Source: Stenomitos rutilans HA7619-LM2 (GTDB taxonomy: Bacteria > Cyanobacteriota > Cyanobacteriia > Leptolyngbyales > Leptolyngbyaceae). Taken from it: a stretch of DNA of 64,000 bases. The DNA lies in NCBI GenBank assembly GCA_019358945.1, contig JAHHIE010000005.1, forward strand, positions 1 through 64,000. The letters run 5' to 3'. Below are positions 50,038 through 54,099 of the stretch, piece after piece. Each line of letters starts with the position of its first letter. The first letter of the stretch is position 1. The notes below the pieces were generated by a model. It did not search any database. It saw only the letters and a list, made by a program, of their open reading frames with translations, and had not been told where the DNA came from. The position numbers were made by a program, and so were the translations under genes.

Positions 50038-50135
50038 AGCTTTAAGGCTGACGCGTTTCTAGTGGCTCGCATCCAAAGCTGATCTCAATTTTGACAGTGA
50101 GCGCGTGTGTGTAGTGTGGAGTGAATGAGGGTTTT

Positions 50136-51230
50136 GTGGACGCTAAGTTATTTTCAACTCAAACGTTAACGCTTTCGGGGATGCGGCTGTTCGTTCTGAT
50201 TGCGGCCGGGCTAAGCACCTTCGCGCTGATTGCCGATGAAGCAGCAGGCCGATCGCTGGCTCAGGTTTTTTCTCTGACCTTACCATTCTGGTTTTGCGCG
50301 GTTGCGGCAGCGGCGTTAGGCTTTTGGGCCGTGCCGTCGCTAAGAGCGTTTAAAGCGGGTCAGGTGATCCGTGAAGATGGGCCAAAGTCTCACCTGAAGA
50401 AAGCGGGCACGCCGACAATGGGCGGCATCTTCTTTCTACCGATCGCGTTGCTCGTGGCGATCGTCTGGTCTGGCTTTGCTCCATCGGTGATGGCGGTTTC
50501 CATTGTGACGTTTGCTTATGGCGCGATCGGCTGGATCGACGATTGGCAAATTATTCGCGGTTGCTCCAATAAAGGCATTACGCCTCGAATGAAATTGCTC
50601 TTGCAGGTGGCAGTCGGCGCGCTGTTTTGTCTTTGGCTAGCCTGGACGCAGCCTGCAACGATCACCACCATTGCCTTACCCTTTGGTTTGATGTTGCCCC
50701 TGGGAGGGCTCTTTTGGGTGGTTGCGGTCTTTGTTCTAGCGGCAGAAAGCAACGCGACGAACCTGACCGATGGTGTCGATGGCTTAGCGGGTGGAACGGT
50801 AGCGATCGCCCTTCTGGGTTTAGGCGCTCTGGTTGCGCCCACATCGCCAGAGCTCATGCTGTTCTGCGCGTGCCTCAGTGGCGGCTGTCTGGGCTTCCTT
50901 TTGCACAACCGTAACCCGGCACGAGTTTTTATGGGCAATACGGGTTCTACGGCGTTGGGTGGTGCGCTGGCTGCCGTTGCCTTGATGACCAATAGTCTCT
51001 TTGCCCTCTTGATTCTCAGCGGCCTTTTCCTGGTCGAAACCCTTTCTGTGATGATACAGGTTGGCTATTACAAGGCGACCAAAGGCCCGGACGGGATTGG
51101 CAAGCGCTTCTTCAAAATGTCTCCTTATCACAATCACTTAGAGCTTTCTGGTTGGTCTGAGACACGCATTGTGGCTGCGTTCTATGTTATTGCAGGCCTG
51201 TTATCGTTTGTGACACTAGCCATCTGTTAA
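50136..51230 (+). CDS. mraY: phospho-N-acetylmuramoyl-pentapeptide transferase
   Basis: A 364-residue integral membrane enzyme that makes lipid I in peptidoglycan synthesis. Signatures: DGPKSHLKKAGTPTMGG, WIDDWQII (Mg-binding DDxx), ATNLTDGVDGLAGGTV, FMGNTGSTALGGALA and SPYHNHLELSGW. Ten helices are visible. The start is GTG 50136 (MDAKLF), with GAGGG five bases upstream; another GTG at 50121 would add five residues. No other mur genes are near. Confidence 0.95.
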   Translation: MDAKLFSTQTLTLSGMRLFVLIAAGLSTFALIADEAAGRSLAQVFSLTLPFWFCAVAAAALGFWAVPSLRAFKAGQVIREDGPKSHLKKAGTPTMGGIFFLPIALLVAIVWSGFAPSVMAVSIVTFAYGAIGWIDDWQIIRGCSNKGITPRMKLLLQVAVGALFCLWLAWTQPATITTIALPFGLMLPLGGLFWVVAVFVLAAESNATNLTDGVDGLAGGTVAIALLGLGALVAPTSPELMLFCACLSGGCLGFLLHNRNPARVFMGNTGSTALGGALAAVALMTNSLFALLILSGLFLVETLSVMIQVGYYKATKGPDGIGKRFFKMSPYHNHLELSGWSETRIVAAFYVIAGLLSFVTLAIC

Positions 51231-51382
51231 TTGGCGAGGTTGTTTGTCATGAAAGGGCACAACGTTCCGATACCTGTGCTCTTTTGGCGATTCTTGGCGT
51301 TGATGCTGAGATTTCTACCAAAGCGATCGCACAACGCTGGTACGGTTGCAGCGAGATCTGCTATCATGATGTTCCAATGTCT

Positions 51383-51474
51383 GGAGAGATGGCTGAGTGG
51401 TCGAAAGCGGCAGATTGCTAATCTGTTGTACGAATCGTAAGACCGTACCGAGGGTTCGAATCCCTCTCTCTCCG
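51383..51474 (+). tRNA. trnS: tRNA-Ser(GCT)
   Basis: A class II tRNA: acceptor stem GGAGAGA (51383-51389) pairs with TCTCTCC (51467-51473), discriminator G at 51474. The D arm has GGCTGAGTGGTC; the anticodon loop TTGCTAA has GCT at 51417-51419. A long variable arm (about 51425-51450) and a T arm GAGGG-TTCGAAT-CCCTC follow. CCA is not encoded. It reads AGC/AGT codons. Confidence 0.97.
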
Positions 51475-51714
51475 TATCTTAGCTACAGCAGTGCTGCACT
51501 CAGTGAGCGATCGCCTTGTTAAAAGGGGTATGGAGTGAGGGTTACAGCGTATGGCGCAGGCAAACGAATCGGGCTGTAAGTCAACCATGCCTCTACGCTG
51601 ATGAAGCCTGGATGATTTTTGGGCTTGCTTTTGCAATTTCACCGGACTGGTGGTTCGTTGTCTGAAGGGATAGAAGGACAACGGTGTTGCTCAATCACAG
51701 GTCTTGCGTCAATT

Positions 51715-52476
51715 ATGGGAAACGGCTCTCGCGTCTATCTGGCTCCCTTTCGGTGCAAAGGATGGTTTCTGTTTGCCTCGGTGCTGCTGCTGAGTACAGG
51801 GTGCTCGCGGTTGCTGCAAGGGAAGCCTTCACAGGACATTAACTTGAAGTTTGCGGTAGACAATCGCTTACCTGGGATTTATGCGATCGCAGGTAAAACG
51901 AACCTGCCTGAAAAAACGCAGATTATGGTCGCAGCGATTCGCTATCTTTACCCAGCGACGATCGCGGCCAAAAATTTCAACCCTAACCCGACCTATGCGG
52001 TCTTGGCGTATCAACCTGTAGAGGTGAATCGAGGAACGTGGGACACCACGCTGAACCTCTGGGAGACTGGAACCGATGGACGGTTTCAGGAGTCTTGGCA
52101 GCTTGACCAAACGAAGCTAAACTTGACGGTTGCTCCCTCGAATGAGGTTGTGTTTCTGGCAACGCTCGCCCCGGTCGATCGCAGTGATCAGTTAAAGCAA
52201 CTCGAAAATCAGCTAGCCAAGCAGAACATTCAGCTTTCCCGCAAGCTTGTTCACGGCACGGCAGACGGTCAGCAATACCTTCAGGTGAGTCAGACGCTGG
52301 CGATCGCCCTGCCAACGGGAAACACAACGCCTCCTTCCATCCGTCCAGAAGACATCAACGGTGGCTGGGGCAATCGCTTTTTGATCCCGCTTGAGCCACA
52401 AAATCCAATCAAGCTGGAGTTGCCGAAGGAACGGCGGACGAATGCGCCTGTGACGGCTGAAGAGTTTTTTAGGTAG
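51715..52476 (+). CDS. lipoprotein, unknown function
   Basis: A 253-residue protein from ATG 51715 (MGNGSRVYLAPFRCKGWFLF). The hydrophobic stretch FLFASVLLLSTGC ends in a lipobox (LSTG-C), so it is a probable lipoprotein anchored in the periplasm. The mature part has no domain known to me; it contains a Thr/Asn-rich strand pattern (NRGTWDTTLNLWETG). A frame further upstream to 51619 has no supporting signal. Located after the tRNA-Ser gene. Confidence 0.78.
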   Translation: MGNGSRVYLAPFRCKGWFLFASVLLLSTGCSRLLQGKPSQDINLKFAVDNRLPGIYAIAGKTNLPEKTQIMVAAIRYLYPATIAAKNFNPNPTYAVLAYQPVEVNRGTWDTTLNLWETGTDGRFQESWQLDQTKLNLTVAPSNEVVFLATLAPVDRSDQLKQLENQLAKQNIQLSRKLVHGTADGQQYLQVSQTLAIALPTGNTTPPSIRPEDINGGWGNRFLIPLEPQNPIKLELPKERRTNAPVTAEEFFR

Positions 52477-52547: not shown

Positions 52548-53501
52548 CTAAAGTGATTGGCTTTTGGGCGCACTGCTTGCACGTGCGTAGTAAAGGCCAA
52601 CCGCGATCGCAACAAGGTACAGGACGGAGCCAAGCAAAAACACGAGGCTGCTGACAAGCCGAGTCTGTGCGAGCAGGTTCATGTCTAGCAGCAAAAAATG
52701 CCAGTCGTGCAGCACGCCTTCCCCACCCAGCAATGGCAACGATCGCTCCTGTGCATCTTGAATGTAGATGGAGACATCCCATACGTTTTGAGCAGCCCAA
52801 CAAAGCGCGATCGCCCCAGCATACATCTGACGTGTGACGACGAAATAGCCTGCGATCGCGGCTGGCACCATCACCTGCATCAGCGAACCACCCAGAATGT
52901 GCAGGAATTGACCAAACCCTGCTAGAAGGGTATGCCCTGCTTCGTGGAAGATCAAATTGACCCCATGCAAAAACATCATGATGGCATCGCTGCCGTCCAG
53001 AAAGCCGTCTACGGTGTAGTGAGAGGCTCCAAACAGGCCATAAAGCGCCAAACAAGCAATGCATGCTAGTTTCAGAGGATTGAACTTCGCTAAAAATTGC
53101 CTTACATCGTTAAATGTCAGAGTAAAGGGCGGCTTACGGTGAGTAGATTTAACAGCATGCGATGGTTGCTGCAAGGAGGTTGTGATCGCGGGGGCCGTCT
53201 CAAGCTGAAGTTCTTGCACCCAGACGGGTTGATTGGCTACCGTCTGTTTGCCGCTGATGGTGATGGTGGTGAGGGCTGGCAAGTGCAAGCGCAACAGTTC
53301 ACGCTGAAGCAGGGTTGTAGCAATCTGCTGGTCAGGGGTGAGCTCTGCTTCCAGGTAAATGTCTAAATGATGAGCGTCAAACACTACATGAGCGGTTATG
53401 TGCTTGTGAGCGATCGCACTTTGAATGATTTGGGCAATGGCAGCACGATCACCCAGTTTTGCCCGTTGCCTCATTGTTAAGGATCGATCGGGTTGCGTCA
53501 T
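52548..53501 (-). CDS. polytopic membrane protein with HEAGH motif, putative metalloprotease
   Basis: A 317-residue protein from ATG 53499-53501 (AGGAGG ribosome site ten bases upstream). Residues about 10-95 form a soluble domain related to the first part of the gene upstream (RAKxG...AIA, then DAxxLxI, LxRxLLxL, PxW). After a linker come four or five hydrophobic helices from about residue 145. The segment FHEAGHTLLAGFGQF has an HExxH zinc motif at a membrane boundary, followed by LGGSLMQVMVP, YIQDAQERSLPLLGG and LHDWHFLLLDM. This is reminiscent of a site-2-protease-like intramembrane zincin, but the fold is not proven. Confidence 0.7.
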   Translation of the reverse strand: MTQPDRSLTMRQRAKLGDRAAIAQIIQSAIAHKHITAHVVFDAHHLDIYLEAELTPDQQIATTLLQRELLRLHLPALTTITISGKQTVANQPVWVQELQLETAPAITTSLQQPSHAVKSTHRKPPFTLTFNDVRQFLAKFNPLKLACIACLALYGLFGASHYTVDGFLDGSDAIMMFLHGVNLIFHEAGHTLLAGFGQFLHILGGSLMQVMVPAAIAGYFVVTRQMYAGAIALCWAAQNVWDVSIYIQDAQERSLPLLGGEGVLHDWHFLLLDMNLLAQTRLVSSLVFLLGSVLYLVAIAVGLYYARASSAPKSQSL

Positions 53502-53559
53502 CCAGTTTACGCCTCCTGGCATCAGTGGTTTGAACGCATTATTCCCGTTCAGGGTAGCA

Positions 53560-54099
53560 CTATACGCCCATCACCATAAAATAGGCCATTGTGGCTAGCA
53601 CTAGCACAAATCCCATCTTGAAGAGTTCAAACCGTCGTTTAGGGGATAGTTCTAAGGATACTGACTGCGGCTGCGTTGACACAGGCTTTGAGGTGCTGCT
53701 TAAAGAAGATGATTCTGGAGCCTGACTGTTAGAGACAAGTGCTTCCGAAGCGGTCTTTTGTGGGGGGAAGGTGGCGATCGAGTTGAGATGGCTTTCGGGC
53801 GATGGTTCCAGTGGGAAGGTAGCAATCCAGAGTGGAAAGGCATCTCCGGTTCGCCACGCATAGGCTCTGACCTGGGAGATCGCCTGTGGCTGAAGCTTGA
53901 GTAAACCTCGATGCAAAAACGCGATACAGGTGGCTTGATGCAGCGGGTCAGGCGATTTGAGCATGATCTGAAGACAATCAGCATCCAGCGCAGCCTTTAC
54001 CCATACGTCTTGGGATTGCAACACGTTGTTCATCAACCCTGCGATGGCTTCAGCGTTTCCTTGCTTGGCGCGTTCTAGCAAACTCAGTGAGGTAATCAT
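53560..54099 (-). CDS. tail-anchored protein sharing the N-terminal domain of its neighbour
   Basis: A 179-residue protein. Residues about 8-95 (RAKQGNAEAIAGLMNNVLQ ... LDADCLQIMLKS ... LHRGLLKLQPQAI ... FPLWIATF) align with the N-terminus of the next gene. A Ser/Pro-rich linker follows, and a single C-terminal hydrophobic helix (FKMGFVLVLATMAYFMVMGV) anchors it with the domain probably in the cytosol. The shared domain is widespread in cyanobacterial proteins of unknown function. The stop is 58 bases before the start of the HEAGH gene, so co-transcription is likely. Confidence 0.68.
   Translation of the reverse strand: MITSLSLLERAKQGNAEAIAGLMNNVLQSQDVWVKAALDADCLQIMLKSPDPLHQATCIAFLHRGLLKLQPQAISQVRAYAWRTGDAFPLWIATFPLEPSPESHLNSIATFPPQKTASEALVSNSQAPESSSLSSTSKPVSTQPQSVSLELSPKRRFELFKMGFVLVLATMAYFMVMGV

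Follow-up and report, generated by a model that had tools for sequence, protein, structure and literature searches.

Two adjacent genes lie on the minus strand of the window, the stretch of 64,000 nucleotides that was analyzed, and all coordinates are given as positions within it. The gene that comes first on this strand (53560..54099), defined by an ORF call and by its orthologues, encodes a tail-anchored protein of 179 amino acids. This protein contains an N-terminal domain, denoted here as the N-domain (53803..54087), which is identified by pairwise alignment and by a profile, and a single C-terminal hydrophobic tail helix (53563..53622), which is seen in the sequence and is the one helix counted by hydropathy. 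The second gene (52548..53522, from the ORF call) encodes a protein of 324 amino acids, the HEAGH protein, in which an N-domain (53196..53480) is followed by the HEAGH-HDW membrane module with five predicted long helices (52551..53114). The initial annotation had described two neighboring ORFs, one with an FHEAGH sequence and the other with a single tail anchor; both ORFs and both features are found at this locus.

The two genes are separated by 37 bases, or by 58 bases if translation of the HEAGH protein begins at Met8 (window 53501). Met8 is probably the true start, since in a relative (L005/L032) a stop closely precedes the conserved MTQPDR. Orthologues of the HEAGH gene occur in five genomes of the genus at 65–81% identity. 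Against five relatives, dN/dS values of 0.10–0.12 and 0.15–0.26 were obtained for the HEAGH gene and the tail-anchored gene, respectively, and both genes are under purifying selection. A tRNA-Ser (gct) is located at 51382–51475, with an MraY-like gene (50121–51230) on one side and a gene for a putative lipoprotein (51619–52476) on the other. No site was found by a promoter scan.

The alignment of the two N-termini reported in the initial annotation is significant, with 98 residues matched at 28% identity and no gaps (BLASTP, single comparison, E = 1e-9). In a search of the whole genome, one protein of the pair (P0001) as the sole query finds its neighbor (P0002) at E = 1e-4. The N-domain is approximately 95 residues long, and both proteins match the family profile over about this length, with scores of 1.8e-33 and 1.4e-30 against a profile built from 44 copies that include these two proteins. 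The profile is characterized by A..G...AI near the start, an invariant L39, and P-x-W near the end. In searches with the single proteins or with profiles, neither protein is covered by a family in Pfam or NCBIfam, which agrees with the earlier description of a novel domain common to the pair. Sequence searches of the PDB with both halves, as single proteins and as profiles, gave only chance-level matches, and the literature searched contained no publication on either the N-domain or the HEAGH family. A match of the tail-anchored protein to DUF4689 (E = 4.5e-4) falls below the cutoff of that family and spans the end of the N-domain and a low-complexity linker; it was taken as chance.

An alpha-beta-beta-alpha-beta-beta arrangement is predicted for the N-domain in the model of the full-length HEAGH protein (pLDDT about 93–97). 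The best structural neighbor is the alpha-lytic protease prodomain-like fold of PDB 4hlb, with a Foldseek probability of 0.96 and a target TM-score of 0.59. This likeness is not significant, since the E-value is 0.49 and the identity 18%. In contrast to that fold, the N-domain is found on many proteins other than secreted proteases.

Fifteen copies of the N-domain are detected in this genome with the 44-copy profile. The domain is present in 55 of 194 sampled cyanobacterial genomes and was found in none of the 32 non-cyanobacterial genomes examined that carry a HEAGH protein. A HEAGH protein with an N-domain, along with additional copies of the domain, also occurs in a metagenome bin labeled Chloroflexaceae (L048, JAAUTE010000156.1), which may contain admixed cyanobacterial contigs. 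As judged from these sequences, and apart from this doubtful bin, the domain was detected here only in cyanobacteria, in line with the uncharacterized cyanobacterial proteins mentioned in the initial annotation. It is usually N-terminal and is in tandem in some proteins. Its fusion partners include EcsC, Pilin_GH, CheW, PGA_cap, STAND- or NACHT-like ATPases, and pentapeptide repeats. A recurrent architecture of N-domain, membrane helix, and conserved C-terminal tail (EWxxVAxxWxxAIxLMxxVP...YAQ-like) was observed in L120, L137, L140, L141, L144, and L146; the two members that were scanned, L120 and L144, have no Pfam match.

Other partners are membrane proteins. In two other cyanobacteria the N-domain is fused to the intramembrane metalloprotease PrsW (PF13367), with E-values of 4.7e-29 and 2.1e-28 (L138:1282-2709 and L150:1483-3060), and the L150 fusion has two N-domains. 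A second family of HExxH membrane proteins (L013:904-2073, L016:733-1845, and L026:1450-2559), with the motifs HELGHA, HEMGHA, and HEIGHA, likewise carries the N-domain. These three proteins are polytopic, are weakly similar to Peptidase_M50B, and have GHG/GHGME and NDFVILA stretches in common. Another polytopic protein, with HEFGH and a weak similarity to Peptidase_M50B, carries the N-domain in L173 (895-2058). The N-domain has repeatedly been joined to different kinds of membrane metalloproteases or metalloprotease-like proteins.

The HEAGH half was used as a profile to search a collection of 84,980 species genomes; 161 relatives were confirmed and 80 were kept. The relatives are from cyanobacteria, Patescibacteria, Rokubacteria, Acidobacteria, Pseudomonadota, Deinococcales, Marinimicrobia, and other groups, and within the cyanobacteria the distribution is patchy (10 of 194 genomes). 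Most of the non-cyanobacterial proteins are about 170–190 amino acids long and have no extra domain. Several from Pseudomonadota start with a zinc-ribbon-like CxxC...CxxC stretch. In L085, L092, L102, L107, and L110, which are pseudomonadotal and other HEAGH proteins, a zinc-ribbon-like start of the form CPKC...CPxCG takes the place of the N-domain. No gene neighbor of the HEAGH gene is consistently conserved across phyla.

Twelve columns are invariant in the 80 aligned sequences: H193, E194, G196, H197, G212, P220, Y253, D256, L264, H272, D273, and W274. The window protein carries the family signature of HExGH, G212, P220, Y253, D256, and H272-D273-W274 on five helices. The HEAGH module represents a real, broadly distributed, and uncatalogued family of bacterial membrane proteins.

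The structure of the HEAGH half was predicted with AlphaFold2 as five long helices, with a mean pLDDT of 95.5 and a pTM of 0.89. Helices were counted from this model because simple hydropathy undercounts them in HEAGH proteins. The HEAGH motif (residues 193–197, 52932..52946) falls within the final third of the second long helix (residues 180–199). The candidate metal ligand D256 (52755..52757) lies where the fourth long helix ends, just past it, and H272-D273-W274 (52701..52709), a second candidate ligand region, is in the next loop. From these helix positions the three elements, along with Y253, are predicted to be on one face of the membrane, which by helix count would be the face of the N-terminus; the charge distribution in the HEAGH proteins leaves the orientation undecided. 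Such an arrangement of residues would be expected of a zinc site, and it is regarded as a candidate site. An AlphaFold check of this half had been suggested in the initial annotation; the membrane fold is predicted confidently, and the invariant residues on it form a metal-site-like set. A Foldseek search of the HEAGH model against the PDB gave no match at E ≤ 0.001, with a best query TM-score of 0.28 among the matches listed, and no match was found in a library of viral structures.

Site-2 proteases (MEROPS M50; PF02163 and PF13398) resemble the HEAGH protein in having HExxH within a membrane helix and a small polytopic core. That family is defined by HExxH together with an LDG motif on another helix, and in some groups its members are fused to a PDZ or CBS domain (PMC10202637). 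The HEAGH module could be a divergent member of the M50 clan, and 2 of its 80 members touch PF13398, with a best E-value of 0.022. However, the LDG motif is absent from the HEAGH family, in which the invariant aspartates are instead D256 (in DA) and D273 (in HDW). The window protein has no match to PF02163 or PF13398, and a comparison of profiles with the M50-type families of this lineage aligns 6–26 columns around HExxH. No site-2 protease appears among the 50 best PDB matches listed for the HEAGH module. Since LDG is absent and only the HExxH helix aligns, membership in M50 is not shown, and we consider it quite improbable. The HEAGH module may nevertheless work like a site-2 protease.

No other membrane protease family in Pfam matches the HEAGH family. 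PF13367 has no match in the module, and the membrane modules of PrsW and the HEAGH protein are unrelated here by sequence although the same N-domain is attached to both. The HEAGH module might be a metal-dependent membrane enzyme other than a protease, for instance one that hydrolyzes lipids, or else a transporter or sensor that binds metal. The lack of any PDB match to the fold, proteases included, and the missing LDG motif are in keeping with such a function, and we know of no protease signature that fits the invariant D256 and HDW. HExxH with its glutamate is the classical metallopeptidase signature, and it is intact in the HEAGH family with the glutamate invariant. The attachment of the same N-domain to annotated intramembrane proteases (PrsW) elsewhere also argues for proteolysis, and a nonproteolytic function is judged to be rather unlikely. 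From sequence and model, the most likely identity of the HEAGH protein is a polytopic zinc hydrolase of the membrane, probably an intramembrane protease.

In the initial annotation the common domain was taken to suggest that the two proteins meet. This argument is not supported: the 15 copies of the N-domain in this genome are on unrelated proteins, so that possession of the domain is a weak indication of a pair, and the two N-domains are placed apart in the domain tree. A 96/80 branch separates them, which does not favor a recent local duplication, although an origin by local duplication was not rejected when tested (p = 0.133). The tail-anchored copies do not group with the first domains of the tandem proteins, and a single clade of the two was not rejected (p = 0.376). 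The same is true of all HEAGH N-domains as one clade (p = 0.081). The tree tests reject nothing because the N-domain is too short to resolve these relationships.

Genome context and tandem-domain fusions provide better support for a link between the two genes than does domain sharing. The HEAGH gene is present in six genomes of the genus, and in each of them the tail-anchored gene adjoins it on the same strand; both are absent from the seventh, which is 91% complete. Beyond the genus, the tail-anchored gene is not adjacent to a HEAGH gene, including in genomes where the HEAGH protein has a single N-domain, and the best matches of the tail-anchored protein in other HEAGH genomes span little more than the N-domain. 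In five other cyanobacteria (L039, L040, L042, L046, and L047) two tandem N-domains are found on one HEAGH protein. These fusions point to two N-domains acting with one HEAGH module as a recurring arrangement.

The two proteins could also be functionally unrelated, with the N-domain serving as a generic cyanobacterial module for targeting or assembly and the adjacency being synteny inherited within one genus. The 15 copies on chemically unrelated proteins are compatible with this explanation, as are the restriction of the adjacency to the genus and the retention there of other neighbors, an alcohol-dehydrogenase-like gene and an MraY-like gene. The joint absence of the two genes from the seventh genome, the tandem N-domains on HEAGH proteins, and the common strand with a short intergenic gap weigh against it. 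An unrelated pair appears somewhat unlikely on balance.

In the preferred reading the HEAGH protein is a zinc protease of the membrane and has a dedicated partner. As a whole it is proposed tentatively, at a little below an even chance; what it says about the enzyme is more likely than what it says about the pair. In this mechanism zinc would be coordinated by H193 and H197 together with D256 and/or H272-D273, and E194 would serve as the general base that activates water. The zinc site would be at the membrane face that bears the N-terminus, and membrane proteins would presumably be the substrates that are cut. The soluble N-domain, presumably cytosolic, would function in cyanobacteria as a docking or regulatory adaptor. 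The tail-anchored protein would supply a membrane-tethered second copy of this domain and is most likely a dedicated partner of the enzyme, acting as an adaptor or regulator; a role as substrate is less likely. The two could then form a regulated membrane proteolysis pair, as suggested in the initial annotation; the adjacency and the tandem fusions speak for a link between the genes. A bolder proposal, in which HEAGH-HDW proteins across the bacteria make up an intramembrane zinc protease class of new structure, several unrelated intramembrane proteases are placed in cyanobacteria under one lineage-specific adaptor domain, and the tail-anchored protein is the dedicated partner, is decidedly unlikely in its entirety.

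The observation made in the initial annotation holds, and its interpretation finds partial support. The more interesting result, somewhat apart from that argument, is an uncatalogued bacterial family of HExxH membrane proteins, together with a single cyanobacterial domain that is joined to several kinds of membrane metalloprotease or metalloprotease-like protein. To our knowledge, intramembrane metalloproteases are few in kind. The HEAGH family, with a compact module of about 170 amino acids, is a good candidate for a further one because it is widespread, retains an intact HExxH and invariant candidate ligands, is modeled confidently with five helices, and lacks a counterpart in Pfam, NCBIfam, and the PDB. 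The HEAGH protein may represent a new type of protease that is embedded in the membrane and accompanied by a small partner. The N-domain would offer a handle on regulation: it is attached to PrsW and to further membrane proteins with HExxH as well, and finding its binding target would therefore test a shared principle of control.
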